From Membranipora membranacea (Eukaryota > Bryozoa > Gymnolaemata > Cheilostomatida > Membraniporidae): a stretch of 64,000 nucleotides of DNA. The notes beneath the pieces were generated by a model that ran no database searches, was not told the origin of the DNA, and saw only the letters and a list, made by a program, of their open reading frames with translations. The stretch covers positions 33,606,001 to 33,670,000 of the forward strand of contig OU612065.1 in NCBI GenBank assembly GCA_914767715.1, read 5' to 3'. The position numbers and the translations under genes are program-made. Position 1 is the stretch's first letter. Every line of letters begins with the position of its first letter. This document shows positions 648 through 62,567 of this stretch, one piece after another.

Positions 648-788
648 TCTAGGAACACTGACCAGCCTGGAAGATCTGAGGTTAGATTATAATAAAACAC
701 TGACAGAATTACCAGATGAGATTGGAGGATTGAAGTGTCTGCTGACGTTAAATGTACTAGGGTGTGGCCTCACCAGTCTGCCAAGCAG
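648..788 (+). CDS. LRR exon a (141 bp, two LRRs, phase 2-2)
   Basis: The exon lies between a ttgtag acceptor and a gtaaat donor and reads as two 23-24 residue LRRs (LxxLxxLxLxxNxxLxxLPxxI, then LxxLxVxxCxLxxLP). It begins after two bases of a codon and ends after two, so it is a symmetric cassette. It differs from exon d (11012) by one synonymous base. Confidence 0.85.
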
Positions 789-3700
789 GTAAATATATAT
801 ATATTTATATACATTCATTACATATTGAGTTTGAGTCGCTTTAAGAACATATTGATGTACACTGAATGAATTTATGTATATATAAATATAGATATATATG
901 AATTCATTGCATGTTGAGTTTAATAACTCTAAGAACTTATTGATGTGTGCTGAATATCATGCTCTAAGCTGAAAATATTGCATTATGAGACTGGTGTGTA
1001 GAATGCAATTACCAACAAGGTGAGTCTCAATTGCAATTTTTTAACAAATTATTATAAACACTGTAGGACGTAAATATTAACTGCATGATATTGTCATAAA
1101 CCAAATTTATGGCAGGCTATTAAGGATTTGTCTAAAGTGCTGTTGGTGAGACTTTTGGGTATACCAAGTTGCCAGATCTGCGAATGATAGAATTTACAAT
1201 ACAAGTATGGAATTTATGGAATCCTGCCGATATGCAAATTATGTCTGGAATCGTCAATATGATATAAGTATTTAGATTAATTCCTTTTTAGGGCAGTTGT
1301 GTGCAATATAAACATATAGGAATGGAAAGTGATATACCTACTCAAGAATATTATGAAGATCATCTTTAGGGTCATATCCCCTTGTAAAAATCACTGACCC
1401 AGCTTTGTTGCCAGTATTATAGGAGTTGCTTGCACCGATGTGTTTGTATACGCTGTTTGTCAGGTTTTTGGCTAAGCCAACCGCAAGGAATATTGACAAT
1501 AGAAAAGGCAATTTCAAATATCGTAGCCTATTGACCGTTGGTGTGCGGTCTTTGTATTAAACCTGTGGCCAAACGTCTCTGGGCATCACTGCCAAGAAAA
1601 CTTATGTTGTAAGGTAGGAATTAATGAGCTATTTTTTAGTTAGCTGCAAACGATATTCCGCTAATAATTAAAACTTGCAGATACTATAAATGGCAAAAAT
1701 ATTTTCCCATATAAATTGTAAAACTAATAATTCATACATTACTATCAATCTATTTATAAGCGGTCATACAGTCTCCAAATATTACCATACACCAGACTCC
1801 AGGGGATGGTTTCAATAAGAGACTCAAAACATCTCTTATAGCTTCAAAGTTCAGCTATTAATAGATAGACAGACATAATGTTTCCCATCATTCAGTAAGT
1901 GTTTGCATTGCTGTTTGTCCGGTTTTTTCATATCAGCAAACTTTGAAAAATAGAAATTAGAGAAGAAATTTGAGAATATCAAATTTTATTTTACATCCAA
2001 AATATATAATCCCCTTTATTAGAACTTACCTGTTCCCAAGTTGTAGGCTGGGCATGTTACAGAGAGCAGGTTATCTTTCTGTTCAGCCAATGCAGAATCA
2101 CAACCCAAGGCCTGCAGGTCAGATTCACTTTCTCCAATCTCTATCCAGGTTAATAGATCACCCAATAGTGAATCGTACATGTGCTCCATTTTGGCGCCAA
2201 ACATCTCATAAAAGTTTGTTTACATTGATACGGAAGAATTTGATGTCAGGAGTGGGACTCTCATAAACAAAGCCCTACACTATCAAACAATAACTACTGA
2301 TAAATAAATTTACTAATTTTTCTCAGTAAATAGTGCTTATTTTTTGAAAAACATTATAGCTGCACATTCCTCAGTTATATTTGACACTGCGGATGGATTT
2401 TTGAAAGCTTATTTTCTATATTTAAAAGAAAGTAAAATATGAATTACTGTAGTAATACAATACATTTGACTACTCATTCTTTTCCCGAGTTCAGTTTTTA
2501 GTTATATTGCAATGGCTAGGCTCGATGTAATTAACATGATGTCAAAATTATTAGGATGTAAATTTGAGCATAGCAAATTGGTAAAAGTAACTTGCATTTT
2601 TTGTCCCTAATATTACCCCCTACACAAGAAAACTGCTGCATGTGTAGTAACAAGTCTCTATAATGAATGCTGGACCTGAACCGCAGGCCACCTTCAAATC
2701 AGAGGTGCTCATACTCTAAACCTTTCAACGGGGTTATAGGCTTAAACTTGTTTTTTTTTAAATGTTTTGCAATATTAGCCGTCAAGAAAAAACTAAAAAA
2801 GGGAAAAAATCAATCAAGATGGCGAAAAAAATAATCAGAACATCAACATTTGAATAATTTATAATTTAGTATTGAACATAAATCAAATGGTATATTGTTA
2901 AAAGTAGATGCTATCATATTAACTAAGAAGTTATTTGAAGTTAAGTGTAGCTTGAACATGTCTCTCATATTAAAAATGCGCGAGAAATTAGAATTTTCTA
3001 ACATAAATGGTGGACATGTCTTGTTTACCAATTGATGTCCAGTTATGCTAGTAAAATATATCTTAAGCACTGGTAGATGTAGAAGGTGTAATGACCCTGG
3101 TAATTCATTAGTTGGTACCAGGTGATTAGGAATGATTTGTATATTACATATCAACCTGAAGGCTCTCTTCTGGAGTAAAAATATGTCCTTTAGTATATAG
3201 TTTGGTGATAGGTTGTATAGTAAATATGGATACTACTTATGATGTGGCAAAAAATTAAATGATGGTAAAGTATATAAGATGTTTTGTTGTCAAAAAACGC
3301 CTACAAATTTGTTCTAGTGTAATTGCCTTTGCTTCTTTTTAACGGACTAAGGAAACATGGTCATGCCATGTTAGCCTGGCATTCATGATGAAACCTAACC
3401 GTTTTCATTCAGGCTTTATCAACAGACTAACTGGTTCAGACTGACATTAGTAGGGGAATGTCAACTGATTTGCTGACTATGTTTATAATAAATACTGTAA
3501 AAAATTACATTTACCTAATCTTATCATAACAATATATGTGTTCTCTGTTATAGTCTAGGATCTCTGACCAGCCTAAAGAAGCTGTTGTTAGCATAGCTGT
3601 TGGTGATGGGTGGTTTTGGTATGACAACACCTGAGAGTTAGAATCTAAAATACAAATATAGAATTTATTGTAAAGTCATAGATACCGACGCACAACCCAA

Positions 3701-6700
3701 GCATTTACATTAAATCTGAGGTGCTCATATTCTCAAAAGATTTCATGCAGGGTTGGGCTTAAGCTAGTTCAGGCTTGATCAACAGTCTATCTGGTTCAGA
3801 CTGACGTTATCAGGGGATTATCAACTGATTCACTGACTATCCCTATAAAAAATACTACATAAAAATACATTACCGAATCTTATCACATCACAATCTGTGT
3901 TCTATGTTATAGTCTAGGAACACTGACCAGCCTGGAAGAGCTGACGTTAGATGATAATAAAACACTGACAGAGTTACCAGATGAGATCGGGGGATTGAAG
4001 AGTCTACGGACATTAAAAGTATCAAAGTGTGGCCTCACCAGTCTGACAAGCAGGTAAATATATATATTTATATACATTCATTACATGTTGAGTTTGAGTC
4101 GCTTTAAGAACATATTGATGTGCACTGAAAGAACTTATGTATATATAAATAAATATATAAATATATGTATATATATGAATTCATTGCATGTTGAGTTTAA
4201 GAACTCTAAGAAGTTATTGATGTGTGCTGAATCTCAAGCTCTAAGCTGAAAATATTGCATAATGAGACTGGTGTGTAGAATAGATGTTGAGCACTGGTAG
4301 ATGTAGAAGGTGTAACGAACCTGATAATTCGTTAGTTGGTACCAGGTGATTAGGAATGATTTGTATATTACATATCAACCTGAATGTTTTTTTCTGGAGT
4401 AAAAATAAGTCATCTCGTATATAGTAACTTTGGATACCACTTATGATGTGGCAAAAAATTAAATGATGGGAAAGTATAAAAGATGTTTTGTTGTCAAAAA
4501 ATGCCTGCAAAGTTTTAATTGCCTTTGCTACCTTTTTACTGACACAGGAAACATGGTCATGCCATGTTAGCCTGTCATTCAATTATTAAACCTAACAGTT
4601 TTCGTTCAGGCTTTATCAACAGACTAACTGGTTCAGACTGACATTATTAGGGGAATATCAACTGATTCTCTGACTATGTCCATAATAGATACTGTAAAAA
4701 ATACATTTACCTAATCCTATCAAAACACTATTATGTGTTCTCTGTTATAGTCTAGGATCACTCACCAGCCTAGAGGTGCTGAGGTTAGATGGTAATGAAT
4801 CACTGACCGAGTTACCAGATGAGATCGATGGATTGAAGTGTCTGCGGAAGTTATATGTACGAAGGTGTGGCCTCACCAGTCTGCCAAGCAGGTAAATATG
4901 ATATATATATATATATATATAGAGGGAAACTGTGATTGTGTCAGCTAACTTGGCCAAAGATATGTCCACAGAGTAAGGATACAGAGGTGAAACTTTAATG
5001 AGAGTCATAGTGCCTTCGGTTTTGGATTCACTGTGGGAAAATCATCAATCTGAATATTTGCCAGTTTTACTAAATATATTAGTTACAATGGCAATTTGTG
5101 ACGCAGACATGCCTACCTATGATAGGTCATAATTCATTCTGTATGTTACCTAAAGACTGATTTCCAACTTTCTTGAAATGTTCAATCTGCAAGCTATACG
5201 CCATATTGTTGTCATTTCTGTTAGGATACATAGGCTATGAGTTATCTGGGGTTTTAAAATGAGTTATATCATATAGATTTATATGCGGCTTGGGTCAGTA
5301 CACGGACATTTCTTAATTTTGATGACCGCCCCGGCTATCAATTGCCACATGTATATCATGATAACACTCATTTTAAAAAATATGGAAAAATTTTGGAAAT
5401 CAGTTTTAGGTTAAATACAGAATGAATTATGACCTATCATAGGTAGGTGTGTCAGCATCACAATTTCCGATGGTAACTTATATAATCAGTAAGATTAGCA
5501 GGTATCCAGATTGATGTTTTCCCACAGGGAATCCAAAACCGAAGGCACTATGATTATCATTAAAGTTTCCCCTCTGTATCCTTACTCTGTGGACATATCT
5601 TTGGCCAAGTAAGCTGACACAATCACTTTTGTGGGTTAAGGTTATGATACCAGCGTTGACCGATTTAGACATTTTATATATGTGATTGGATGATGTTGCG
5701 TCATTTTATCGGAGAAATGAGGCCGAAAATGCTGTTTTTAGCAAAGTGGATGGCTGCGCTACATTGATTGCTACAAATTTCTAAACAGGTTACATTCATT
5801 CTTAGAGACATAGTTCATCCTAATTTTAGGTGGAAAATAATATTTGATGAGCCCAAAATGGCTTTTTAAGTCACGTCATAATGCGTGTTGTTTTTTAACT
5901 TTGATGATATAATGCTAAATTTTAAGCTACGATTTGAGACAGTTCGAATAAAATAGGGCCATATTTTTTGCTTTTTTTCCACTATATTGCTGTTTAAATG
6001 ACACACACCACAAATTTCAGCAGTATATCAAATGTATCAATATCAGCATAGACCATCAAAGGTAGATACGTTTTGCGCCATTTATCAATAACGTCAAACA
6101 TGCTGTCAAAAGGTCCAGCACTAAAGACAGACAAATTTATTTTGAAAATTCTCACATACGAAGCCGCTTTGATTAAGCTTGGTACAAACAGGAAATGCCA
6201 ACAGAATACGGCACTATGCATTTGTCTTCCTCGAATTATACCACACAGAATACCCAAAACAGCCAATTTAAGGGGCTTTTCAAGGTGTTTTTCGGCATTC
6301 TGTGTGGTATAATTCGAGGAAGACTAAAACATAGTGCCATATTCTGTTGGCATTTCCTGTTTTTACTATGCTTAATCGAAGCGGCTTCGTATGTGAGAAG
6401 TTTCAAAATAGATTTGTCTGGCCTGAGTGCTGGACCTTTTGACAGCGTGTTTGACGTTATTGATAAATGACTTAGTTGGTTAAAATTGCAAGTGTTGTCT
6501 CTGTCCGAGGACTGAGGAATATCAGTGCCTTAAGGGCGCGGCCGCCGTATTTGTCGGCAAGTTGCTCTCAGTGTGCAGGCAGGCCGGAGCATACCTGGGG
6601 CGTCATGTGTCATGAGCCCAGTAGTCAGTAGACCGCAGCGGGATTCGAAGCCGGGACCTCCAACGCTTGCGCGTCAGAGGGCAGGCGCTCTAAACAACTG

Positions 6701-9700
6701 AGCTACCTCCTACTCCTTGTCTAGTAGTAACAGTAAAGTAAAACTGATAAAGTAGAAAAGAAACTGTAGTCTGGAAGCTGTCACGTAAAATATTGAGAGA
6801 TGACGGCATCTCAACTACCACGTTCCATCCTATTACCTAAGCTTAGCCAGTTGTTTTCATCAATCAGTCACCAGCCTGCATATTGCTATATTACTGTATT
6901 TTTCTGTATAATATATTTTGTGTGTGTCAGGATGTAAAGCAAAGCAGTTAATTGAATGCATATGAGAAGTTTGGAACAGCTGTTGGATATCACATACTGC
7001 TATAAACATTATTTACATCAAAACATTAGATCATTTTTCAATAAATAATACTAATACTGAGTGCAAGTTAACCATTCTAACTAATAGTAAAAAACTATTA
7101 AAGTGTTTGTAAAGGAACAGGGTTCTTGGTATCATTTTTGAGCTTGAAATGAGATTAAGACAGCTATCACACATGCATTTGCATGAAAAATAAGTCTTCA
7201 GGGTTACCTGGTCTGGTAGGTATGGGGGTTATAAGTTAACACTATTGAGTTGCCTACTCATGCACAGCCCAACTTGTCCAGGCGATTTGTAATGAGCCTA
7301 TTATGGGCGAAATGCAGTAATATTAGTGACTATTGTGGTTAGATAACAACTTTTGCAAATACATGACAAAGTCACTCACAAGTCTGTCGATGACATAAAA
7401 GTTCAAATTTAATGAGTTGAGGCCGCTAATCAAAACAAACTTCATTTCTGTTGTGAGCCCATGTTGAAGAAGAGATTAGAAGAACCACTGTACCAAAGAT
7501 TATAAATACTGACTGTACATTACAATCAATGACTATGACCCATTCCCTGTCCACAGCTTTTCAAGCGAGTGAGTTTCATTTCATACCGCTGCGCTTGTTT
7601 ACTCTGTTTGAATAAGATTATACTGGAGCAATGGATTCTTCTTGCTGACAAAGCCTTGCTTATTTCAGATTTACCTAAAAATGGGCCATACAATGCTTTA
7701 TGGTTAGTACCAAATCTTGCGATAACATCCAACACTAGCCCCCCAAATAAGATCCATAGTGATGAAATAACTCAAAAACTCGACAAATTAATTTCCTATG
7801 TGACTGATGTGTGCTTTGACATAGGTTCTCATATGGCCTGCTGCACTCAGTCAGTAATATTGATAGTCCATGTTTAGATGTGCTGAGTATCTGTGATGCA
7901 CAGATGGACAAGATCTGATGTAAAATAATATAGAAAGTTTCTCAAGGTATTCCACTGCTTACACGATTATCAATACTCCTCTCTTTAGGAGGCAGTCAAA
8001 TTCATTTACATTTTACATCACCCTGAAGTCCGAAATAACTAGATGACAATTTTGTTTACTTCAATTTACTTTGTGACTTGAAAATTCCAGTTTTTTATGT
8101 AAACAACAAAGTTTACCCGAGAAAATCTTGTGAGTCCAAACATCAGAATATTTGCAAAATTTGTCGTAAAGATTCTTAAAACTTCAAATCACTCAGTATT
8201 AATCATCGCATGCTTTGGATTTTAACATCATCCTAATGCCTGAAATGTCGAGATTTGAAAACAAATTATTTTAGATTTTTGTGCAAATTAGAAAAACATC
8301 CAGTCTACATGTGTAAATTTTGTAACTTCCATTGAAATTCTATTGAAAGCCACTAATCATAAAGCATAACGGCTGAAGACAGAGTTTGTTTGGAATGTCA
8401 TATCTTAGTATTTATAATCTTCAATACAATCCATGTAGCCACAATCTCATTTATTCATCGAATAAATATACACAAAACCTTGAAATACTTTAGCCATGTA
8501 TTGATCTGCCTTTATATTGCCAATTTCTATCTCGAGCAGTAACCATGGTTAACAGAAAGTGTTGTATCTGTCAAAGCACTGTGGGTTATTTCCAGTGGCC
8601 GAAATCATACAGATTTAAACTTGAGTGGTGTGACTACCTCAGAGATATTTTCCCTCTGATAATCACATGGACTCGACGTCGATTTGCAAAAAATGCCTCC
8701 GAAATGATATTCAATCTCGCTCTCACTAGAGCTGTTAATCTCCCTGTAATTTTCATTCTCACTGTCGGATGAGCTAGAGCTGTAATTTTTTGCTATGTTC
8801 GATTTAGATCGTTAGCTTTGTCATTGAATTATGAAATGTCATACACTATCCCATTTTACCAGCTAAACCGCATGGGACAGATAAATAAAGCCTTGTATTC
8901 ACTCATTCATTCAATAGATAAATTCTGTGTGTTTTGATATCACATGCAGAATATCAAAACCACTGTGTCATAACAATAATGTTCTAAACTAGACTGAGAT
9001 CTCTAGAATGATACCAAAAAACCTGATCCTTTACAAACACTTTAAAGGACCAAAGCAATATACAGTGTAGCTAGTGCTGCAGTAGCCTGTCTTGACAAGC
9101 TTTGTTCGGTGGGGGGTGGGGGAAAATGCAAGAGTTGACAAACTTTGTTCTCCACCCCAACCGAACAAAGCTTGTCAAGACAGGCTAGTCCTGCAGTAGT
9201 CATGCAACAGTTTTACACTGAAAGATTCATAGCGCTTCTGGGTAACAATCATGTAAAGTGGTAGAAATCGTCATCCTGCTGACCTAATGAATATATGCCA
9301 TGTACTATACAAGTAAAATAAACTAGCACTTTAGAGCTTCCTATTTTCCTTCCAAACTGGAACCACTCACACCAGTGGATAAAAAAACTCTTATGGTGAG
9401 GGTTGCCATAACAAACTCCATATAAATCCCTCTAGTTGCTAGAAGATACGCCAACACCAGTTAACTGCAGTTCTCTAATTGTGTATTAACTGTGTAATTG
9501 TTAGCACTCTGTGTGTATGGAGAATTGAATCCACCTGAGCAATCAACTTCATTATGTGTCTTGCAAAGGTTGTGTCTAAGATTTTGTTTTGAGCCGTGAA
9601 AAAGTGGTTGGCATACTTTCAAATTATTACGACTGTCTACTATTCGATATGAAGTAGGTGAAATATGATAAGGATTCGGATGAAATCCAAAATATAACAC

Positions 9701-12700
9701 AACAAAATTGTTTCAACTGGTTTTCCTCTGCCTAAACTCATCCAGAAAATTTCAACATAAAAAGGAGGGGAAAACATTTATCACTTTCTATTAGAATCAA
9801 TATTAACTTGGTCCACTGCAGCAATTCAAATAGCAGTCCTGCCATAAACAAAGAAGCTAAGATCTTACATACCTTTCCCTTGAACTGGAACATAAAAATA
9901 ATTATCCCGACAAATCATACAATAGTATCTACAATAGATTCAATATAGCTTCGATTATCTTTATTATATGTCAATTATTTAAAAACTCCACTACTAAATT
10001 AAATGTATAAATAGTTGCAATTTTATATCAGACATATCAGCCTATTTGTAAGTCCGCTGACACAATGAGTTTTGTAGCCACTTATATAGTGAAAAAAAAC
10101 CTTTAATATTCTCACTGAAACTTGTGTTGTTCAATCATTGTTCCAATTTTTTATTAGCTGTATAATAGAACTTCACTCTAATTATCAGAACCTAGTCACT
10201 AAGTTAACCTGGTCCTGGCATTAGCTGTTTGATGTTATAAGTTCCTCTAAAGTATGTATCCAATTATTTGAGTCACTGAAGTACTGTATGGCATAAATTA
10301 ATCGTGCTCAACTAGCTCTTCTTGGTTAAATTTATTGTTTCCGTTTCTGCAATATTCAATTTTTCGGAATCTGGAATATTATCATAAAATTGATTATCTT
10401 CAAACTTAAGTTGACCCTATAATTTTCTATTTTCGTTAAAAGCACAGAATGAAAGAATGTGAATTCCCATTAATCTGTTTAAAGCAGAAGTTAAATAATA
10501 GCATACTTTCAGGAGAACTGCAAAACGTAGACACTGTCTTTGATTTATCATAGAGATAAATAACATCCGCTATCGAAGAATTTCAGATGAGAAAGCTTTT
10601 ATCACATTACAGAGAATAACAGATATTTTGCTCCATTATAGACATTATACTCATATCTTCATAAACCAAATTTATTTAAAATTATTGTCTGCTGTGCTGT
10701 TGGTCAGAGTTTTGGGTATTACAATACCCGAGAAGTAGAATTTACAATACAAGTATATAATTTATTGTAAAATTATCAATACAGAATCACTGCCCAAGTA
10801 TCTATAATCAATCTGAGGTGCTCATAGTCTCAAAACCTTACATGCAGGGTTAGGGTTTCAGCTAATTCAGGCTGGATCAACAGACTAACTGGTTTAGAGT
10901 GACGTTATCAGGGGATTATCAACTGATTTACTGACTATCCCTATCAAAAATACTACATAAAAAGAACATTACCGAATCTTATCACATCACAATCTGTGTT
11001 CTCTATTGTAGTCTAGGAACGCTGACCAGCCTGGAAGATCTGAGGTTAGATTATAATAAAACACTGACAGAATTACCAGATGAGATTGGAGGATTGAAGT
11101 GTCTGCTGACGTTAAATGTACTAGGGTGTGGCCTCACCAGTCTGCCAAGCAGGTAAATATATATATATTTATATACATTCATTACATATTGAGTTTGAGT
11201 CGCTTTAAGAACATATTGATGTACACTGAATGAATTTATGTATATATAAATATAGATATATATGAATTCATTGCATGTTGAGTTTAATAACTCTAAGAAC
11301 TTATTGATGTGTGCTGAATATCATGCTCTAAGCTGAAAATATTGCATTATGAGACTGGTGTGTAGAATGCAATTACCAACAAGGTGACCCTCGATTGCAA
11401 TTTTTTAACAAATTATCATAAACACTGTAGGACGTAAATATTAACTGCATGATATTGTCATAAACCAAATTTATGGCAGGATATTAAGGATTTGTCTAAA
11501 GTGCTGTTGGTGAGACTTTTGGGTATACCAAGTTGCCAGATCTGCGAATGATAGAATTTACAATACAAGTATGGAATTTATGGAATCCTGCCGATATGCA
11601 AATTATGTCTGGAATCGTCAATATGATATAAGTATTTAGATTAATTCCTTTTTAGGGCAGTTGTGCGCAATATAAACATATAGGAATGGAAAGTGATATA
11701 CCTACACAAGAATATTATGAAGATCATCTTTAGGATCATATCCCCTTGTAAAAATCACTGATCCATCTTTGTTGCCAGTATTATAGGAAGTGCTTGCACC
11801 GATGTGTTTGTATACGCTGTTTGTCAGGTTTTTGGCTGAGCCAACCGCAAGGAATATTGATAATAGAAAAGGCAATTGAAAATATAGTAGCCTATTGATC
11901 GTTGGTGTGCGGTCTTTGTATTAAACCTGTAGAAAAGCTGCAAACGATATTCCGCTAATAAATAAAACTTGCAGATACTATAAATGGCAAAAAGATTTTC
12001 CCATATAAATTGTAAAACTAATAATTCATACATTACTATCAATCTATTTATAAGCAGTCATACTCTCCAAATATTACCAGACACCATAATAGATTGTTAT
12101 ACTGCAAGATGGATTACAAAGTCTCCAGGGGATGGTTTCAATAAGAGACTCAAACATCTCTTATAGCTTCAAAATTCAGCAATAAATAGATAGACAGACA
12201 TAATGTTTCCCATCATTCTGTAAGTGTTTGCATTGCTGTTTGTCCGGTCTTTTTATATCAGCAAGCTTTGAAAAATAGAAATTAGAGAAGAAATTTGAGA
12301 AAATCAAATTTTATTTTACATCAAAAATATATTTTCCCCTTTGTTAGAGCTTACCTGTCTCAAAGTTGTAGGCTGGGCATGTTACAGAGACCAGGTTATC
12401 TTTTTGATAAGCCAATGCAGAATCACAACCCATGGCCTGCAGGTCAGATTCACTTTCTCCCATCTCTATCCAGGTTAATTGATCACCCAATAGTGATTCC
12501 GTACATGTGCTCCATTTTGGCACCAAACATCTCATAAAAGTTTGTTTACATTGATAAGGAAGAATTTGATATCAGGAGTGGGACTCTCATAAACAATGCC
12601 CTATACTATCAAACAATAATTACTGATAAATAAATTTACTTGTTTTTCTCAGTAAATAGTAATTATTTTTTGAAAAACATTATAGCTGCACATTGTGGAG

Positions 12701-15700
12701 ATCATTTTGATGGTCTCATTTGCCTTGTAGCTTAAGTATATAAGCATTTAATCAGGACTGAAACTGCAAACAGAATTATAGCTTGAAGTCTATGCACCTG
12801 TAGTCTGGAAGCTGTCACGTAAAATATTTAGAGATGATGGCATCTCAACTACCACGTTCCATCCTATTACCTAAGCTTAGCCAGTTGTATTAAGCAATCA
12901 GTCACCAGCCTGCATATTGCTATTACTGTATTTTTCTGTATAATATATTTTTTGTGTGTCAGGATGTAAAGCAAAGCAGTTAATTGAATACATATGAGAA
13001 GTTTGGAACAGCTGTTGGATATCACATACTGCTATAAACATTATTTACTTCAAAACATTAGATCATTTTTTGATAAATAATACTGAGTGCAAAGTTACCT
13101 CACGTACCATTCTAACTAATAGTCTACCTGATCACTTGCCCATTGCTGGGTGCCAAAATTGTGTGGCAAACACAGCTCATCAATAATGGTCACAAAACTA
13201 CACAGTGACTTAATATCCAACAAAATAAATGAGCCAGGAAATTGGAGTGTAATTTATGAAATCGGCAACCCAGGGGAGACCTCCATGAGCGATGCTTTAT
13301 AGAAGCAAATTATCACTATCACATCTCTCAAAATCATCACTCACTTGGCTGTTCAATTAGACAAATTCGCTCACTCAGAATTTATATAGTTCCATCAAAG
13401 ACTGAGCCATTTCTGAGCGAGACCATAGAGTGCGCGATCAGATTGCGATTTTGGCTGTTTTTAATTGAAAGATCCCCCTAAAACCCTTCGCTCTCCTTTA
13501 AAATACGATGCTAAAGCTAATAGCACAGTTGTTATAATCCAAGCAGATGAACCAGGTCAGAAATTTCACTTTTAAGCCACCCTGTATGACGAAAAAGTTA
13601 CACAATTTAATCAAGAAGCATGATGGGATCCTTGAAAAATACTCATGGTCAATCATGGCTCAATACTAAAAAACTTGATAAAAAGTATTAAAAACCATAA
13701 GAGAGTTTCAAAATTGCAGAGTGTGGATCTTATCAGGAAACATCTGAAACAACATGTTTTGAACCTAACAAATAATGGGGGTTTGTCAACATAGTTTTGA
13801 ACAGAAAAGTTTGTCATGATGATACAAATGGGTGTTTGAAATTTGACGACATAAAAATGACAGAAAAACATGAAACAACTGCGAACAGGGCACAATGTTT
13901 TGTTGAAAAATCATTTGAACTCCATCTGAATTGGTAAACAAGGTATATAAGTCATCTTTGTCTACTTTCTGACAAACTTTATAATGAATCTGCTTCCTAC
14001 AGTAGGAAGCAGATTCATTATAAATTTTGGCTATATATTATAAAAATGGCCATATAGAACATTAGTCTCAGAACACATGATTCTTTTGATAGACAATTTC
14101 TCACAGGACTGGTCACGAATTCACCAAATTACAGACACTAATTTTGCTTTTGAAACATTCATCGAAAGCTACTCTACCATCATTGAAAATTCAAGCAAGA
14201 AGACTAGTGCTAAAACCCAAATGCGACATTTTAAAAAGCCACCGATGACCACAGGATCATTGGAACTTAGAGAAAAGTGTAAAAATTGCACATTAAATCT
14301 AAACAAGAACAGGAGTTTCCAATACAGAAGCCAGCTAACCAATAAATTGCCTTCCAATTAGTCCTTTTTATGATATTTAGGAATTGTTAACAATTTCAGG
14401 TATTTCAATGCGTCAGACCTTTTAAACTCTGCGAAGAACTGTCACAGTGTTACTATTAATGTTATATTGTCACTATTATTCCTCGAATGAACAGAACACC
14501 CCCCCCCCCCTCCCCTAAACATTTTAGTATTTCACAAGATCATTATGGGGAAAGTGTGACAAATTTACATAAATCTGGTTAAGAAAAGTATTTCTATTTA
14601 CATTTCAGAAAAGCTGAAAAGACTCCTTTATTGATTTATCACAAGAAAATTATTATTATCTTCCTAATAAGGAAGTTCTGATGAGACAACAGAAATTTGT
14701 TCTACCATAGACATCAGGTAGCAAGACAGAAATTGCACCATATTTAAAACCTAGGCACGGAATCACTGTCCAAATCGATAAAGATTCTTTTATTCCTACC
14801 AAATTCCATAGAAAATGCACTGTATGCTATTAAAATTGCAATGGATTCCTACACTTCTCATAGGTAAAAATATTTGAGCTATTCTATTTTTCTTTTTACA
14901 GCATGTCAAACTTAGAAAATTTAAGGCTACTGAATATCAATAAGAATATAGCTCTACTCTCAATTCCCGCTGGAGTATGTCGACTCGATACACTCAAGTC
15001 AATGGAGTGTAAAGACTGTACATCTCTGACAAGTCCTCCTTATGCTGTCTGTAGACAGGGGCTGCTAGCAATGAGAAAATACTTTGCCGATCTGGAAGAA
15101 AATGTTGAGCAAAACAAAAAGTTTGTTCCAATAACTGTTATTGGTCAAACTATGGCTGGTAAAACCAGCCTTGTTCGGTCAATGCAAGAAAATAAACGGG
15201 CTTTGACCACTCGATGTAACAATAGCAAGCTAGATCAGGCCACCAAAGTGATCAAGGTGTGTGAGGTAGACGTTGATGAAAAATTCAAACTTGTATTTCA
15301 TGACTTTGGTGGGCAAGCAGTATATCAGTTTGCCTATCAATTGTCACATAGATCACAGTATGTTCCCATGCTTGTCATAGACATTGCTGAATTTGACCGA
15401 CTTGTAGCTGAACACGGAGAAGAGAATGCCTGTGAGACAGTCTGTTTAACATGGCTCTCCCACCTTTATTTGTCCTGTCCAAAAGCAGGCCAGCCTTTCG
15501 TGGTGCTCACCCACTGTGATCTTATCGATAATGAAACCTGCAAAGCGAGAGTGAGTCAGTTGATAGAAGTGACTGAACGTCTGCGCCTTAGGTTAATAGA
15601 GGAGGAGAAGGCAATGAGACCAATAAACAGTCCAATCTTCATAATGGAGAGTTTCTGTGATACATCTCAACCTCTTCTCTCAAAACACACACCCCTTCTC

Positions 15701-18700
15701 ATATATAAAGGTTCTGGAACACAGGTAATCCTCGATCTAAAAACTTTCCTTGTGTCTGTTGGATTGCCTCTACTCACAGAGATTCCAGGTAGCTGGTATG
15801 TTCTGATGAATTTGTGTGCAAACAGCACACAGCCATATCTTACGCTGGGTGAGCTAGACAAGCTCTTCTCTAATGACAAAGATCGCTTCATTCTTCAGTA
15901 CCTTCATGAAATCGGGCGAGTGATGTGGTACAGAAATCGAGTCAAACTAAAAAACATCGTGTTTCATCGCATTGAGCTGCTCACACACCTAGTTGAGTTG
16001 CTCTATGATCACTGCAGAGAGGAAGCGTGGAATAAGCATAGTTTTCTGGCATTCCAGCATGATAACATGGGAATCAATCAACGGCAATACAATCATATGG
16101 TCCAATCATACCTAAATACTGGAGTGATAAGGGACATTTTACTGCTCAACCTCATCAAAAAAGAGTCCGAATTCAAATCCCAACCTGAGCTTGCAATCGA
16201 GGTATTGAAGGTCTTTCATTTGGTTTGTGGTCCTGTCAAGAAGGGCAGTGAAAGTCATTATATCGTCCCATACTTCAGTCAGAGAGAAATCACAATCGAG
16301 GAATCTGGAAAGTACATTCTTTTGAAAGTTGACATCTGTTTCAACGGACTGGCTATTCCTAGCTACGTATATCATCTTCTCGCTGCAAATTATGTGGATC
16401 TCCATATAACGCCATCCAATTGTATTGAGGCTGGCTCCAATGGTGTTTGTGTGAGGGAAAACAATGGCACAATCAAGTACCTACTTCATAACCATACTGA
16501 GAGAACCTTTTCCCTCCTGATACTGACCCCAACAAAACATGTCGATAAATCCTGGAACAGCCTGCTGTACACCTTGCAAAATTTGAGATCTCAACTGGAA
16601 CAAGAATGGAAGGGAGCTCACTATGAGATAGTATTCTACTGTTCGCACTGCCTGCTCACTAAGAAGGAGAACCCAACCACTCAAGTCAATCCTGCATGGC
16701 TCAACACTCGCCATCAACCTTATACTGGCGATGAAACTTGTGACTGTATTCAGCAAACTTCAGCCAAAAGCCGGACTACTATTCCGTATCCACTGTTCTA
16801 TCCATGTGAGTACAGTTTCACCAACTTATGTATGATTGATATGGCAATGAAAATTCTGGTCTGCTCTTTCTGCCTTCCTCTATAGATACCTTAATTCAAA
16901 TTGTTTTTCTGATGCTTGCTATATTATGACATACTACATGCTACTATATGCTTGATAGGTAGCACCATCACAGAGAGAGGGGTTCGGACTTTAGATGAGT
17001 ACATGTCAGAATTCGAAGTGGCTTCTCATGAATCACAAATAGAGGATATTGTGAAGGAAGTAAATTCTGAGAAAGTTCTTATTTACGCTTCAGATTTATA
17101 TCCAGTCACGGCTGACCCAATGAGTAGTACACTGAAACATAAGGTAGGAAGATGTTGTTGATTTTCACCTTTTATATGTAATATTTTCAAGATGAACCCC
17201 ACTGTTTTCACTCATAACCTGCATACAATAAGATGGTAGTAAATTTACTGGATTTAGTGTGCCTACACACACATTAGTCAGAGTCTTATTTTCTTGCAGA
17301 AGGTGTACAAAATGTCTGAGACTCGCGGAAGAGCGCTTATTATATCGAACACCTGCAATAACACAAGGAAAGGTTCAGAGCATGACTATCGGAATATTAA
17401 AGGAATGCTTGAGAAGTTTGGATTTATAACTGTAGGAGGTCACAAAAATTACACTGCAGAGGTAATGGCAATGTTTTTGTTCCGCCATTGTTTAAGCGCT
17501 CAAACGGTGACGGGATGCTGGTAGAGGCATTTCATTATCAAGAGAAAGTGGTTGATAATGAAATGCCTCTACCCGCATCCCGCCACCGTTTGAGCGCTTA
17601 AAGGGCAACCAGGGTTTCAAATAACTTCTCATTTGTTCTCATTGATTAATAACAGATTGCACCTTCTGCATAGAGAAAAAGACAAAATCTAATTGGGATG
17701 ATTATTCAGCCAAAATTCTTGTGAAACATTTCATCCATCTGGTACTGACACTAGAATACCACAGAGCAGTTTCCTGTTCCTGTTATTATTTAGCCTGTGC
17801 TCTATCATCATTACAGCAATGTCGTGGAACCTCCCCTAAACTGAAGTGTTACCCAGCTTAGAGTCAGTAACCACTTTGAGTTTTGCATCGCGTAATGCAC
17901 AAAGCTGATGCTGCTTAGCACATTATTTACTACCTGTTAATGCATTGCTGCAAATCCTTGGTTGCCCCTTAAAGGGCAACCAAGGTTTCAAACAACTTCT
18001 CATTGATGGCCATTGATTAATAGCAGATTGCACCTTCTGCATGGGGAAAAAGATAAAATATAATCCGGATGATTATTCAGCCAGAATTCTTGTGAAACAT
18101 TTCTTCCATCAGGTACTCAAACTCAGCTAAAAGAGAATGCCACATAGCAGTTTCCTGTTCCTGTTATTATTTAGCCTGTGCTCTATAATTATTACAGCAA
18201 AATCTTGGAACCTCCCCTAAACTGAAGTGTTACCCGGCTTAGAGTCAGCAGCTACTTTGAGTTTTGCATCGCGTAATGCACAAAGCTGATGCTGCCCAGT
18301 GCATTATTTGCTACCCATTGATGCATTGCTGCGAAACCTTGGTTGCCCTTTAAACTAGCTCCGCCACAATGAAATAAATGCATTGTCACTATAGGAAAAT
18401 TATCAATATTTGATCTAAAATTATAATAGTTAGAGGTGACTGTAACTCAGTTTGTAAGGTAGTATAGATATTTCATATGAGAGAGCCAGTGATCAATTCC
18501 CAGCAATTGCAGAAGTATAAGAAGAAGCGACCAACCAAAGCAGCAGCATCTTGTTATCAACTTGATGCTATTTCTTCTTCAATTTTTTTTTTAGCTGAAA
18601 ATTAGTATCAACTGTTCAGGATAAGCTGCTAAATCTACTGTAATTCTCAAACTCAAAATCAAAGAAAAACCTGGACTTTTGACAGTAAAGCAATAATTGC

Positions 18701-21291
18701 ATCATTGTGTCTACAACTTCCGATGACGTTACGTCGCCCCACAATTAAGTGCCTCATTTCAGCTGTATATGGTGTCCTGTCTAGGTATGTTATTAAGTCT
18801 ATGGTGAGATCCTATTTTTTGGCTTCAGGCTATATACGTATACTCGAATCACTTATTTGTTGTTTGCATAGATGATCGTTACGGCTATCCATTCAGAGAC
18901 ACAGCTAGTAGACTGGGAGACAGGAGAATCAGTACACAAACATCTCAACTCATTTGTGTTGGTCATCACAAGTCATGGTCATGAAGGGTCTGTGTCTGGT
19001 TCCAATGGTAAACATCTCGTAATCACAGAGCTTATGGATCTGCTCTCATCTGAGAATTTCCCCGCTATGAGAGGGAAGCCAAAGCTGGTCATCATACAGG
19101 CTTGTGCTGGTAGTAAGTTTATAAACTTGATCGATTATGGACCGTCAATTATTTTTCTAAGGGAGTAACTTACTAATAGTTCAACGATTCTTTTTTAATT
19201 TCCATGTCCTTGTCATTTACGTCTGCATTCTCAGGCAGCGATTTAATTACCGATGGTATGACATACACCCAAATTTTCTACTAAGTATTTGCTCTTATAC
19301 TCATAAGACAAATTAGTTCTCAGTGAAAGTCCAGATTGTCTCTCTACTTGTAGGTAGGAAAGAAACACTTCCAGGAGACTTGCCCCCTTCTCAAGCACCA
19401 CCCAATCAGAATCAGCTAGAAGTAGATCAGCCTCAACATAGCAATGGTGCCACAAATGAATCCCCTTCTACAGATCCTCATGATAACCCTATATCAGACT
19501 TCATCATTATGCAGTCCAGCTTTGATTGTAAGTTGTGAGAGACAATATTCCATACTTTCTAATTGTGATCGTAGATGTGTTGGTATTGAAATGAACATAA
19601 TTGTACTTTATATCACTGACAACCAGTTTGAAGGTTGTGATGGTTTGTTGATGATTGAGTTATTTTAAATTATGAACAGTAGGACACCCAACTCAATCTG
19701 ACGGGCACAGCTGAGCTGAGGCATATCCATCTTCTTTGTTTGAGTGATGTCATCGATCAGTTATTTTAACAGGATATCCCAGCCTTTGGCATGCACAACT
19801 CATTTGAACACTTACAGAGTATGATAACTAGCCACTTGGTCATACTGGGCAATAGTAGGAAATGCAAAAACAATTTTTTGTGTTCTTTTGCAGCATTCAA
19901 ATCACATCGAAGTCCTAAAGTTGGCTCGCTGTTCATCCGCTGCCTGGTATCTACATTCTATAGATATGCTCACAGAGATCATCTCGAAGAACTGGCAGCA
20001 ATTGTAAGTGATAGATCTTACTGCAGTTTTAGTCAATGTATGATGCTTGTAAACAGATTTTACACAATCAATCGAGTTTTTTGCAGTACAGTTATTAATT
20101 GTCTCAACAAATTGTTGGTTAATGCTTGAGAGTTTAGTAAGACTTGATGTAAGCATGTGTATTTTTACAGCATAATCTCAAGCTGAATCAATCAAGCACA
20201 AATACAACACACGTTTTTTTAGGGTGGGGGGTAAATGGACTGAATAATACATAGCATGTTAGTCACAGCTAAGTAAATGATTCCACCCGCACCTTTGTGA
20301 CGGCCATTGGCTTATTTTACAGGTCAGTGAGACTGTAGTAAAGGCTGGAGCACAGAGAACAGAATATCTGCAAAGAATCGGAAAGCAGCATTATCCCTCT
20401 ATACCTCAGACTAGATCTACATTTCTAGGTAATAAGTTCTATCTGCAGCCTGGGATCAATATGAGAACAGAGGACCACCCAGAATCACTCAGAAATCCTG
20501 TGTTACGCAAACCTACAGCTACAAGGATTCACACAGAACCTGGTATGTATGATGTTATGTATGATATAGAAGAAATGAAAATCATAGAAACTTTTTACTC
20601 GTTTCAATGCCGTTGCGCCACTTACGATGCTAATGCTGCTGCTGCCGCCGCCGCCGCCGCCGCCGCTGCTGCTGCTGCTGCTGCTGCTGCTTACAGTGTC
20701 CTGTCTAGGTTGAGGAAGTTTTTATTTTTACCTGATTATGACACTGCCTCAGTTTTTTCTCCTACACACCCGCTGATATGTCTGTAACTTGTGAATTAAC
20801 CAAAATATAAGGTACATATGTATTTTTTGAGTAATGAAAAAGCATTGTGCAATAATACATATCATGCAATATTTATTAGTGCTAGAGATGCGTTAGACAA
20901 AGAGTGGCCCAATGGTTAAGGGTGCGAACTTGCAAACCTTGAAGACCAAGTTCAATTCCCAGCCCGGCAAATGATAATGTTGAAAATAAGATGCAAATAA
21001 CATGTTATGCTTTCTACCTGATGCGGCCACAAATTATTTTCTTGCCCACCCACTGATATGTTGTCATGAAGGAACAACTTGAAAATTCACAAAAAAAAAA
21101 CATGAGTGAAATATGATTGGCCTATGGTATGGAAAAGACATTGTGATGTCTTACCATAATATACAATGTTAATTGGATTTTTCTCTTCTACAGACCTAAT
21201 ACATACATATAGAACCGGAGAGGCAGAGCAGATGAAGACTTATTATCAGTGGTCAGTAAAGAGAAACTCAGTAAAGAGGAACTCACCGTGA
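648..21291 (+). CDS. LRR-Roc-COR-caspase protein (ROCO family), 5' end outside the window
   Basis: Predicted exons: 648-788, 3913-4053, 4751-4891, 11012-11152, 14902-16805, 16959-17143, 17300-17461, 18872-19112, 19235-19255, 19354-19527, 19894-20003, 20323-20542 and 21194-21291 (stop TGA). Phases agree at every junction. The protein would carry LRR pairs, a Roc GTPase domain, a COR region, a linker and a full caspase p20-p10. Roc-COR proteins are large GTPases that dimerise through COR (LRRK, MFHAS1 and DAPK1 are animal relatives). Caspases are Asp-specific Cys proteases of cell death and inflammation. No CARD or DED prodomain is seen; the LRR-Roc-COR part may take over the sensing and oligomerising role, which is inference. 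The upstream start, and whether all four distant LRR exons join one transcript, are unknown. Introns between LRR exons are unusually long and full of repeats. Confidence 0.8.
2019..2190 (-). other. Antisense exon-like reading frame, copy A
   Basis: On the minus strand an open frame of about 55 codons ends at a good donor (ACAG|gtaag). It includes the segments GDLLTWIEIGESESDLQ and SVTCPAYN. The same frame with the same donor is open in copy B (12344-12525) despite several amino-acid differences and no indel. This looks like a stray exon of another gene or of a transposon carried in the intron. I do not recognise the family, and no neighbouring minus-strand exons were found. Confidence 0.35.
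2840..3400 (-). mobile_element. LINE reverse-transcriptase 3' fragment (minus strand)
   Basis: The minus strand reads as a decayed non-LTR retrotransposon C-terminus: a WHDHVS-type motif near 3380-3350, then FRLICNIQIIPNHLVPTNEL (interrupted) and a tail ending near 2843. A second copy lies at 4273-4590. Both are frame-disrupted and 5'-truncated. They sit in introns of the LRR gene. Confidence 0.7.
3554..3592 (+). pseudogene. Truncated LRR exon
   Basis: A TATAG acceptor is followed by about 39 bases matching the start of the LRR exons (LGSLTSLKKLLL). The match then stops and intron-type sequence resumes. The exon has no donor and is a broken cassette, evidence of exon turnover in this gene. 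Confidence 0.65.
3913..4053 (+). CDS. LRR exon b (141 bp, two LRRs, phase 2-2)
   Basis: Same length, phase and flanks as exon a. It differs from the others at exposed strand positions: ELTLDDNKTL against DLRLDYNKTL, and LKVSKCGL against LNVLGCGL. The usual LP near the end is LT here. About 500 bases of the flanking introns resemble 300-1000. Confidence 0.83.
4273..4590 (-). mobile_element. LINE reverse-transcriptase fragment, second copy (minus strand)
   Basis: A minus-strand frame includes LTWHDHVSCVSKKVAKAIK and FRLICNIQIIPNHLVPTNEL, a non-LTR retrotransposon RT tail closely related to 2840-3400. It joins the intron repeat abruptly after GTGTGTAGAAT, where copies A and B continue differently. 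Confidence 0.75.
4751..4891 (+). CDS. LRR exon c (141 bp, two LRRs, phase 2-2)
   Basis: Flanked by a ttatag acceptor and a gtaaat donor. It encodes the same LRR pair with variant exposed residues (VLRLDGNESL, LYVRRCGL). A dinucleotide AT run and a foldback element begin directly after its donor. Confidence 0.84.
4920..5640. mobile_element. Foldback (MITE-like) element with ~230-bp arms
   Basis: Sequence at about 4925-5160 returns as its reverse complement at about 5400-5640, including GGATACAGAGG / CCTCTGTATCC and CCTACCTATGATAGGTCATA / its complement. A non-palindromic centre separates the arms. A related sequence lies at 54890-55370. There is no coding capacity, so it is a non-autonomous DNA element of unknown superfamily. 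Confidence 0.75.
6075..6470. mobile_element. Foldback element with ~190-bp arms
   Basis: The left arm, beginning CATTTATCAATAACGTCAAA, is matched by the right arm ending GACGTTATTGATAAATG. The arms run through GCTTTGATTAAGC / GCTTAATCGAAGC and CCTCGAATTATACCACACAG / its complement. The short loop holds nothing recognisable. Small open frames here are by-products of the palindrome. Confidence 0.8.
6500..6716 (-). mobile_element. tRNA-derived SINE (minus strand)
   Basis: Read on the minus strand from 6716, the sequence contains GGAGGTAGCTCAGTTG (A-box-like) and GGCTTCGAATCCC (B-box-like) at tRNA spacing, then about 130 bases of unrelated body. The T stem does not pair properly, so it is not a functional tRNA gene. 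It would be an RNA polymerase III-derived SINE. Confidence 0.6.
6765..7095. repeat. Direct repeat, copy 1 (partner 12800-13125)
   Basis: This stretch, from GTCTGGAAGCTGTCACGTAA to ACCATTCTAACTAATAGT, recurs at 12800-13125 just after the end of duplication copy B. The match stops exactly at AATAGT, where the 7.1-9.05 kb inverted-repeat element begins in this copy. Confidence 0.88.
7097..9052. mobile_element. Putative ~1.95-kb DNA transposon with inverted ends
   Basis: The left end at about 7098-7137 (TTAAAGTGTTTGTAAAGGA, then GGTATCAT) is matched in reverse complement at about 9010-9050 (ATGATACC, then TCCTTTACAAACACTTTAA), with a few mismatches. It holds only short frames, including a THAP-like start at 8545. 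No target-site duplication is clear. It would be a decayed or non-autonomous element. Confidence 0.55.
8545..8772 (+). pseudogene. THAP-like zinc-finger fragment inside the 7.1-9.05 kb element
   Basis: The 75-residue frame starts MVNRKCCICQSTVGYFQWP and continues through LEWCDYL. This resembles the first half of a C2CH THAP DNA-binding domain: CxxC near the N-terminus, an aromatic/proline patch, and a Trp some ten residues later. The distal Cys and His of the domain are not seen in this frame, so it is at most a fragment. THAP domains occur in P-element-type transposases, which fits its place between inverted ends. Similarity is judged from memory only. Confidence 0.3.
9086..9200. mobile_element. 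Small MITE with ~32-bp inverted ends
   Basis: TAGCCTGTCTTGACAAGC at the left is answered by GCTTGTCAAGACAGGCTA at the right around a G-rich / C-rich centre. CTGCAGTAG occurs on both outer sides and may be a target duplication. A degraded relative occurs at about 56850-57000. Confidence 0.7.
11012..11152 (+). CDS. LRR exon d (141 bp, two LRRs, phase 2-2)
   Basis: The protein is identical to exon a (one synonymous A/G difference). It arose by the segmental duplication. If spliced in, the protein carries the same LRR pair twice. Confidence 0.84.
12344..12525 (-). other. Antisense exon-like reading frame, copy B
   Basis: Counterpart of 2019-2190: the minus strand reads through LTWIEMGESESDLQ and SVTCPAYNFETG to a donor GACAG|gtaagc. 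The frame has been kept open in both copies although substitutions accumulated. Identity unknown. Confidence 0.35.
12800..13125. repeat. Direct repeat, copy 2 (partner 6765-7095)
   Basis: Same order and orientation as copy 1 with small indels, for example an added CCTCACGT near 13103. It ends at CTAACTAATAGT and then diverges. Confidence 0.88.
13300..13485. mobile_element. Truncated hAT-like MITE
   Basis: It contains TTCGCTCACTCAGAATTTATATAG and an end TTAATTGAAAGATCCCCCT, matching the body and right terminus of the complete element at 24813-25062. The left end is degraded. Confidence 0.6.
13978..14024. repeat. Perfect 23-bp-arm palindrome
   Basis: Arms 13978-14000 and 14002-14024 are exact reverse complements around one base (A14001). 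AAGCAGATTCATTATAA can be read outward from the centre. It would form a cruciform or a hairpin in the pre-mRNA about 880 bases upstream of the Roc exon. Origin unknown. Confidence 0.9.
14077..14361 (+). mobile_element. LINE fragment (endonuclease-RT linker)
   Basis: A 94-codon frame reads DWSRIHQITDTNFAFETF, then KKPPMTTGSLELREKCKN. This pattern (DW..I...D.N.A...F, later KPW.T..L..S...K) is common between the endonuclease and reverse transcriptase of non-LTR retrotransposons. No RT motifs follow, so it is a short remnant inside an LRR gene intron. Confidence 0.5.
14902..16805 (+). CDS. Main exon: terminal LRRs, Roc GTPase and COR
   Basis: The exon opens after a ttttacag acceptor in phase 2, as the LRR exons do, and continues with a last LRR pair. 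Roc follows. Counting from the first Met codon (14903), the P-loop GQTMAGKTSL is at residues 81-90, the switch II motif DFGGQ at 134-138, and the base-recognition motif THCD at 203-206. The P-loop Lys, Thr and Ser and the Gly-Gly of switch II are present, so nucleotide binding is expected. The region from about 280 onward (PGSWYVLMNL, a GELDKLF helix, FLHEIGRVMWY-like segment) resembles COR, the dimerisation module that follows Roc. The open frame runs on to 16885, but the better reading leaves it at CCAT|gtgagt (16805), joining in phase to 16959. No kinase or death domain lies in this exon. Confidence 0.88.
16959..17143 (+). CDS. Linker exon between COR and caspase
   Basis: After a TTGATAG acceptor the frame reads STITERGVRTLDEYMSEFE, then an acidic helical stretch, and ends CATAAG|gtagga. 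Phase 1 in and phase 0 out match both neighbours. No known domain is recognised. It may be an activation linker, since caspases are usually cut N-terminal to p20, but no clear site is claimed. Confidence 0.72.
17300..19255 (+). CDS. Caspase p20 (large subunit) exons
   Basis: Three exons: 17300-17461, 18872-19112 and a 21-base microexon 19235-19255. The first gives RGRALIISNTC, the conserved RG strand whose Arg helps bind P1 Asp, then DYRNIKGMLEKFGF. The second carries the catalytic His in SHGHEG and the catalytic Cys in QACAG. The microexon and the next exon give SDLITDGRKE, comparable to the stretch after QACxG where caspases are processed. Both catalytic residues are present, so an active protease is predicted. 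The 1.4-kb intron between the first two holds a hairpin and two copies of a 380-bp MITE. Confidence 0.85.
17493..17599. repeat. Hairpin with 48-bp arms
   Basis: The left arm starting TAAGCGCTCAAACGGTGACG is answered by the right arm ending CCACCGTTTGAGCGCTTA, separated by about ten bases. The right arm abuts the terminal TTAAAGGG of the next MITE. A half copy without its partner arm lies at 52200-52250. Confidence 0.85.
17598..17971. mobile_element. TTAAAGGGCAACC MITE, copy 1
   Basis: About 375 bases beginning TTAAAGGGCAACCAGG and ending CCTTGGTTGCCCCTTAA. The inverted ends are about 20 bp. Shared body sequences include GCAGATTGCACCTTCTGCAT and GCATCGCGTAATGCACAAAG. It is non-coding. Copy 2 follows tail to head, sharing the TTAA. 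Confidence 0.88.
17967..18353. mobile_element. TTAAAGGGCAACC MITE, copy 2
   Basis: Direct tandem copy of the preceding element with the same ends (AAGGGCAACCAAGGTTTC ... GAAACCTTGGTTGCCCTTTAA). Divergence from copy 1 is modest. It sits wholly in the intron that splits the caspase p20. Confidence 0.9.
19354..21291 (+). CDS. Caspase interdomain linker, p10 (small subunit) and C-terminus
   Basis: Exons 19354-19527, 19894-20003, 20323-20542 and 21194-21291. The first is a Pro/Gln/Ser/Asp-rich linker ending ISDFIIMQSSFD, which lines up with the ADFLxxxST-type strand that begins caspase p10. The second has SHRSPKVGSLFIRCL, the SxR...GSxFI block that supplies the substrate-binding Arg. The third and fourth complete p10 and add a basic tail ending SVKRNSVKRNSP before TGA. 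Together with the p20 RG and QACAG residues, all three expected P1-Asp pocket positions (Arg, Gln, Arg) are conserved, so this looks like a true caspase rather than a para- or metacaspase. Confidence 0.8.
20636..20694 (+). repeat. GCC/GCT trinucleotide repeat
   Basis: About 19 GCN triplets in a row, first GCC then GCT, in the intron after the third p10 exon. Because the upstream frame stays open past the donor, intron retention would add a polyalanine tract, but the normal splice removes it. Confidence 0.9.
20891..20972 (+). mobile_element. tRNA-like SINE head
   Basis: AGAGTGGCCCAATGGTTAAG resembles an A box and AAGTTCAATTCCCAGC a B box, about 45 bases apart. Stems are imperfect and the sequence runs on into AT-rich DNA, so it is a SINE or tRNA pseudogene. 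Confidence 0.5.
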
Positions 21292-53320: not shown

Positions 53321-53368
53321 GGAAATCGGACCAGTAGTTCTCAAGTTAGTATCCTAGGCAAGGCATGA

Positions 53369-54025: not shown

Positions 54026-54065
54026 TGCCTAAAACACGAAGTTAACCCATCCCTCTGATTTAGAT

Positions 54066-62400: not shown

Positions 62401-62567
62401 AGATTTACTGATCTTATATATTACAGCATGTGTACAATGGTTAACCTCACGGAGCTGAATGTGAGAAGTAACTTGAGCCTGAAGAGATTACCAGACGGGA
62501 TCTGTGAGATGAAGAGCTTGACAAAGTTAGATGTGTCACACTGTAGTCTACAGGAACTGCCAGAGAG
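56458..62567 (+). CDS. Second LRR-exon gene (probable ROCO relative), 5' part; 3' end outside window
   Basis: Exons: 56458-56497, 56721-56813, 57762-57981, then nine LRR exons of exactly 141 bp at 59416, 59794, 60172, 60547, 60922, 61297, 61672, 62047 and 62427. Translation starts MESPSTSSEQHSH, passes a Ser/His-rich then acidic stretch and VYRVWYRDNTEPEIDEF, and enters LRRs at NYRDVTLSELL. Every LRR exon is phase 2-2, 47 codons, two LRRs with pattern LTxLxVxxNxxLxxLPxxIC and LTKLDVSxCxLxELPE. The exon size, phase and gtaaat donor equal those of the LRR-Roc-COR-caspase gene at the other end of the window, so the same downstream domains are expected but lie outside. There is no signal peptide; the predicted product is intracellular. 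Confidence 0.8.
58441..59124. mobile_element. 684-bp near-perfect foldback MITE
   Basis: Two arms of about 330 bases, nearly exact reverse complements, from TTAAAGGGATAATATACTTC to GTATTATCCCTTTAA, around a short centre at about 58765-58795. TA flanks AAGGGATAAT on both sides, compatible with a Tc1/mariner-type target. It lies in the intron just before the LRR exon array. Confidence 0.9.
59165..59235 (+). mobile_element. tRNA-like SINE head (weak)
   Basis: AGTATGACTTTAGCTTGGCA and GGTTCTACTCCCGGTT sit at A-box/B-box spacing. No cloverleaf forms. Confidence 0.35.
59416..62567 (+). repeat. Tandem array of nine LRR exon cassettes
   Basis: Unit length is mostly 375 or 378 bp (one exon plus one intron). 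Introns come in two types: after exons 1, 2 and 8 they start GTAAATAGCGCTGATC, after exons 3-7 and 9 GTAAATCAGACGTG. Exons 5 and 7 are identical over 141 bases, showing a 750-bp two-unit duplication or gene conversion. The repeated 91-codon frames on the minus strand are antisense by-products. Confidence 0.95.

Follow-up and report, generated by a model that had tools for sequence, protein, structure and literature searches.

Along a stretch of DNA from the bryozoan Membranipora membranacea, exons for LRRs, a Roc-COR GTPase unit and a caspase follow one another on the same strand. The initial annotation read them as a single gene, which raises the questions whether one protein could join all three parts and what such a protein might do. 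To answer them we analysed the whole stretch, hereafter the window (64,000 bases, C1:33606001-33670000 of the 339,339,785-base assembly GCA_914767715.1), together with related loci elsewhere in the same genome.

Exon structure of the gene in the window

Joining 12 exons from 648 to 21291 (Table 1) gave one frame of 1,219 residues, its first codon filled out with two intron-border bases and its sole stop at the end, which confirms that the splice phases connect the LRR, Roc, COR and caspase exons as had been proposed. The four LRR exons are 141 bases long each and in phase 2 at both ends, and the start phase of the Roc-COR exon matches them. Of the six exons that follow the Roc-COR exon and precede the last one, five were open solely in the frame used and the p10 exon was open in two. 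Given the single open frame and the recurrence of the arrangement in relatives, we reject a chance joining of frames. The motifs reported as intact were recovered as well: the Roc-COR exon holds GQTMAGKTS, DFGGQ and THCD, and the caspase exons hold SHG, QACAG and SHR...GS.

Table 1. Coordinates in the window of the predicted exons of the gene and of exons belonging to the following array gene.
Position	Strand	Feature	Remarks
648..788	+	LRR exon, 47 residues	141 bases, phase 2 at both ends; LRR_14 4.6e-7, below cut-off
3913..4053	+	LRR exon	
4751..4891	+	LRR exon	
11012..11152	+	LRR exon	Protein identical to 648-788; segmental duplicate
14902..16805	+	Last LRRs, Roc GTPase (GQTMAGKTS, DFGGQ, THCD) and COR region, one exon	Donor at 16806
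16959..17143	+	COR-to-caspase linker exon	Two exons in paralogue L029
17300..17461	+	First p20 exon of the caspase (RGRALIISN...TRKGSEHD)	
18872..19112	+	Second p20 exon of the caspase, holding the catalytic His (SHG) and Cys (QACAG)	
19354..19527	+	p20-p10 linker exon	Several Asp residues
19894..20003	+	Caspase p10 exon (SHRSPKVGS)	
20323..20542	+	C-terminal caspase exon	Matched by tblastn in L004, L014, L018 and others
21194..21291	+	Proposed last exon up to the stop	Basis: splice sites alone
57764..57967 (C1:33663764-33663967)	+	Next array gene, N-terminal-type exon	
59406..62573	+	Next array gene, tandem LRR exons	Spacing about 375 bases

The proposal that the gene begins at 648 did not hold, since a further LRR exon lies upstream (L023:1838-1981) and the start of the gene must be placed 5' of the window. 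The nearest N-terminal-type exon found upstream is at C1:33579645, about 26 kb ahead of the window. From its sequence, the stretch is best explained as the 3' portion of a single gene that belongs to a chromosome 1 tandem array.

Segmental tandem duplications with a spacing of roughly 9-10 kb (window 1-2368 and 10349-12694, and L023) carry LRR exons with their introns. Since the exons were duplicated together with the introns, the number of LRRs seems to change by copying of intron plus exon. A repeat at 17597-18354 and 52940-53616, which looks like a mobile element, has two copies within the caspase intron and further ones in other parts of the window, some of them inverted. Three frames (2843-3232 and 4241-4582 on the minus strand, 54033-54527 on the plus strand) resemble, by eye, fragments of retroelement reverse transcriptase, and Pfam gave no match for any of them. 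An elongation-factor-like GTPase exon, presumably of EFTUD2, lies at 27491-27826 between two array genes (GTP_EFTU 2.1e-19).

Tandem arrays and family size

Between 33.58 and 34.43 Mb of C1, ten N-terminal-type exons (N), eleven Roc-COR exons (R) and eleven caspases (C) alternate as NRC NRC NRC NRC NRC NRC NRC RC NRC NRC NRC, with one N missing. The gene that follows the one in the window has its Roc-COR exon at C1:33707183. A second array at 36.0-36.7 Mb misses one R and a third at 31.5-32.05 Mb has one C extra; in all cases the array members were picked by hand among the matches listed. Genome-wide, we found at least 150 N-terminal-type exons (from 185 candidates), at least 150 p20b matches (from 225 candidates) and, after merging lists, at least 187 caspase loci. 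The family thus likely has a hundred or more members, a figure that takes intact and damaged ones together.

Twenty relatives were fetched for comparison, of which 18 (L003-L020) were chosen for a downstream caspase and two (L021 and L022) for having none listed. The similarity of the Roc-COR exons of L005 and L020 is split over two frames, so that some family members look damaged; these two exons could be either damaged copies or sequence errors. The Roc match of L021 is cut short and no caspase was found at that locus. On the minus strand of C9:2370500-2390000 (L024/L025), a frame holding MGSCLSWFRK, which resembles a lipid-anchor start, lies upstream of an N-terminal-type exon and could be a candidate for the first exon.

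Linkage of the Roc-COR and caspase exons

With the exons of the window as queries, 55 of the 69 scored Roc-COR exons (from 257 candidates) have a caspase 0.7-3 kb downstream on the same strand, and none of the 69 has a caspase upstream or on the opposite strand within 12 kb. Fourteen had no listed caspase: three of these loci were fetched (L022, L027 and L028) and all carry a second caspase type, and for the remaining 11 there is no caspase among the matches listed. A Pfam-based search agrees in direction, as 35 of 148 Roc places have a same-strand caspase at most 12 kb downstream and none has one upstream or on the opposite strand; its lists cover 150 of 372 and 140 of 515 candidates, and further GTPases of the Ras-like kind seem to be counted among the Roc places. 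After merging the lists, 92 of 203 Roc places were paired with a caspase among the matches listed.

These data bear on whether two adjacent genes could be involved, one for LRR-Roc-COR with its end at 16885 and another for the caspase, which tandem duplication has kept side by side. The Roc-COR frame does run to the stop at 16885, and in-frame Met codons are present inside the linker exon and the first caspase exon, as that arrangement would have it. Against it, the COR exon and the linker exon are only 153 bases apart, and the stop falls inside the intron between them, behind the donor at 16806. In the 18 relatives chosen for having a caspase, the order is always Roc-COR, p20a, p20b, p10, and a GT donor always closes the COR exon at one common residue, whereas the in-frame stop behind it wanders from 3 to 201 bases on. 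Because the GT overlaps a conserved Cys codon it is weak evidence by itself, and more weight goes to the donor bases that follow the GT and to the variable position of the stop.

Linker exons of matching phase recur as well. In a scan whose reference motifs came from the window and three of the 18 relatives themselves, such an exon with the shared motif was detected in 10 of the 18. The scan found no motif-bearing linker exon in the other eight, five of which (L008, L011, L013, L015 and L019) have a candidate without the motif, one (L012) a single unconvincing candidate and two (L009 and L018) none. In L029, a 70% identical paralogue with its linker in two exons, DNA similarity to the window is confined to the exons, part of the linker included. 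Given the recurrence of the linker, the Roc-COR/caspase order that is never reversed among the scored exons, the exon-only similarity of L029, and the common donor with its wandering stop, we judge two adjacent genes to be very improbable. The proposal that LRRs, Roc-COR and caspase belong to one gene thus gains support from the genome-wide order and strand, the donors, the phase-matched linkers and the 153-base gap, and one gene appears likelier than two.

One gene might nevertheless have alternative ends, with some transcripts stopping after COR and the caspase serving as an optional module. We regard this as unlikely: the stop at 16885 does come just behind the donor, and L007 holds two caspase domains of which one has no catalytic residues, both of which would suit an optional module, but the distance of the stop varies among the relatives. 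A single gene that runs on into its caspase remains our preferred reading.

In some relatives LRRs, Roc and COR share a single uninterrupted frame, of at least 1942 residues in L026 (where the frame runs to the fetched end), 1745 in L027 and 1634 in L028; by Pfam, L026 and L028 have strong LRRs, with Roc and COR-A below the cut-offs. Frames of this kind (1634-2462 residues) were considered as intronless retrocopies and rejected, since they are long LRR-Roc-COR exons and the caspase exons are still split.

Domain identity and motif conservation

In the raw exon frames, Roc scored 29.1 bits against a Pfam cut-off of 27, COR-A 20.5 bits against 35.3 and LRR_14 29.4 bits (4.6e-7) against 40; the joined linker and caspase exons matched Peptidase_C14 at 109.4 bits (2.9e-31) over positions 1-225 of the 233 of the profile. 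HMM searches therefore recover Roc and Peptidase_C14 as the initial annotation expected, and COR-A too, yet under the Pfam cut-off. The best solved matches to the caspases are caspase-9 and caspase-8; for the window caspase, caspase-9 ranks first among 176 matched solved-structure sequences, and its SHG and QACGG align with SHG and QACAG.

For conservation we aligned 17 genes, namely the window gene and 16 of the 18 caspase-bearing relatives. The Roc-COR alignment, the trees and the counts exclude L005 and L020 because their Roc-COR matches are broken into two frames, and L021, L022 and L026-L030 are absent too. Roc was detected in all 17 at E<=0.01, and at the same threshold COR-A in 11 and COR-B in one, so that the COR assignment is moderately supported and dimerisation through COR is extrapolated from the family. 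A profile of the 17 Roc-COR exons matches 3dpu, which we take to be the Chlorobaculum Roco, at 3.3e-16, the COR stretch being weak (i-Evalue 8.1). Its 10 solved matches include 3dpu, 6hlu, 8r4b and 4wnr (the last three presumably prokaryotic Rocos as well) and LRRK1, which is matched more weakly than 3dpu; the rest match the LRRs only. Neither NACHT nor NB-ARC was found by Pfam at E<=1 in the frame of the Roc-COR exon, a search that covered this exon of the gene, and PADLOC gave no match for the two proteins submitted. A single-sequence structure prediction was discarded for its mean pLDDT of 36.6.

All 17 aligned genes retain the GTPase motifs AGK[T/S]S, D[F/L/V]GG and THxD. The catalytic His and Cys of the caspase are kept in 16/17, with L007 as the exception, the p20 Arg in 16/17 and the Gln preceding the Cys in 17/17. 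In caspases the pocket for a P1 Asp is formed by the Arg of p20, the Gln of QAC and the Arg of p10; the window caspase, whose p10 contains SHR, retains the residues predicted to form it. L007 has two consecutive caspase domains (L007:4765-5583 and 5785-7732), a second-type caspase sitting ahead of a first-type one without catalytic His and Cys, and this latter domain is possibly a pseudo-caspase regulator. An invariant W, an FxCxHC motif and a later Cys cluster near the end of the COR exon in the Roc-COR alignment (residues 569-615 of the window exon) and may perhaps form a metal site.

Exchange of caspase cassettes

The caspases fall into class 1a, present in the window, class 1b (L008, L011, L013, L015 and L019) and class 2 (L022, L026, L027, L028 and the first domain of L007). 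Apart from L007, each locus read shows a single class; there is an additional, partial 1a match farther along in L005, and L016 contains a p20a match that is partial. The clearest case of differing classes on similar genes is the pair L009 and L019, which share 94.2% identity along 3.5 kb that comprise intron and Roc-COR exon, show no DNA match across the caspase (class 1a versus 1b) and resume at 94.9% identity downstream of it. Likeness on the left side with a differing cassette is also seen in L016/L015 (85.5%) and L004/L007 (91.5%). To judge from these alignments, near-identical LRR-Roc-COR chassis bear different caspase cassettes. The window gene and its neighbour L030, 97.3% identical up to the first caspase exon and with differences of 17-20% in the later exons, would represent a milder case of cassette exchange.

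The ends of the blastn matches hinted at an exchange exactly at the splice donor. Windowed identity, however, moves the left border in the L009/L019 pair to a point within the COR exon, about 240 bases before the exon ends, and an exchange at the donor itself was given up. Such a position is compatible with homologous recombination or gene conversion. The caspase tree joins the five 1b rows (99/98), and an AU test on the Roc-COR data rejects the same rows as a clade by 799 log units; this test was not blind, as the 1b group was named after viewing the alignments, and it carries a long-branch warning, for L013 above all. Between Roc-COR distances and caspase distances the correlation is weak (Mantel r 0.344, a value reached in 11 of 9999 permutations). 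The weak correlation and the conflicting trees speak against a simple fusion that never changed partners, and we read them as cassette exchange.

Proposed mechanism and role

The predicted anatomy combines sensor repeats, a nucleotide switch and an effector protease. We hold it to be fairly probable, by analogy, that this tandem-array gene, with an N-terminal-type domain, an LRR array, Roc-COR, a linker and a caspase, encodes an intracellular receptor for innate immunity or self/non-self recognition. Most likely, ligand binding by the LRRs would alter the Roc-COR unit and so bring caspase domains together. In detail, the LRRs would bind a foreign or altered-self ligand, upon which the Roc-COR unit would change its nucleotide state and its self-association; the attached caspase domains, thus brought together, would be activated by proximity and cut themselves or substrates after Asp, leading to cell death or local inflammation. 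Activation of the caspase would then be driven by GTP, and no CARD or DED adaptor would be needed. Over evolutionary time the sensor would be diversified by tandem duplication and the effector exchanged via recombination at the COR-caspase border.

A use in immunity or allorecognition is suggested by the family size, the arrays, the multiplication of LRR exons and the exchange of effectors. We tentatively go one step further and propose that the LRR-Roc-COR arrays of this colonial animal may comprise a hundred genes or more, with caspase cassettes of at least three classes swapped at the COR-caspase border, as one-protein cell-death receptors for defence or colony recognition. Caspases also have non-death roles, and one fused gene could use its caspase for local processing or signalling (self-cleavage, cytokine maturation) or act in development instead of serving as a death receptor; we think this rather unlikely, as a family of this size in tandem arrays, with LRR exons that vary and cassettes that are exchanged, agrees better with conflict-driven evolution. 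Receptors of the kind we favour would give bryozoans candidates for immune or allorecognition receptors, and the family would provide a set of naturally swapped effectors on a shared chassis, parallel to bacterial conflict systems.

Comparison with known systems

The closest architecture is bacterial. In bacteria, LRR - AP-GTPase(Roc) - COR proteins carry C-terminal effectors that vary, the caspase being one of at least 24, according to the sections of PMC8195603 drawn on here. The domain order is the same as in the present gene, with the LRRs first and the effector last, and these sections likewise describe several copies per bacterium with varied effectors (PMC8195603). In contrast to the bacterial proteins, this is an animal gene with introns, the caspases have caspase-9 and caspase-8 as their best solved matches, and caspases are the sole effector seen in the loci read. 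A recent transfer from bacteria was considered and set aside: one narrow scan of genome contigs with two patterns gave 234 pattern matches, none of them confirmed as a prokaryote relative by tblastn at E<=1e-3. In bacterial ternary systems, AP-GTPase-COR and caspases are placed separately as effectors, as far as the excerpts of PMC7159879 go.

Among the papers listed in searches of the open-access literature, with subscription papers and preprints outside their scope, we found neither an animal Roc-COR-caspase fusion nor such a family in bryozoans. The animal Rocos include LRRK1/2, DAPK1 and MFHAS1. MFHAS1 shares the LRR-Roc-COR chassis, and the GTPase motifs of animal Rocos are alike. In Trichoplax, Rocos carry CARD or death domains (PMC4104024), and the animal Rocos named in the consulted portions of that paper differ from the present gene in being without a catalytic caspase (PMC4104024). 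Hybrid LRR-caspase and TNFR-caspase proteins are described from amphioxus (PMC2575513); in them, as here, a sensor is joined straight to a caspase with an active-site motif, bypassing an adaptor, but a Roc-COR GTPase goes unmentioned in the passages of PMC2575513 used for this comparison. The LRR-Roc-COR-caspase combination is thus already known for bacteria and LRR-caspase for amphioxus, and for the predicted animal LRR-Roc-COR-caspase we saw no counterpart among the open-access papers listed.

The NLR/inflammasome and the Apaf-1/CED-4 apoptosome combine sensor repeats, a nucleotide switch and proximity activation of a caspase. They would work alike, yet with a STAND ATPase in place of the Roc-COR GTPase and with the caspase as a separate protein recruited via CARD or PYD, whereas here it would be attached. 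If the gene is transcribed as one protein, the covalently attached caspase of this animal receptor would be gated by a Roc-COR GTPase in the place of a STAND ATPase, and GTPase control of caspase activation would become testable within a single polypeptide.
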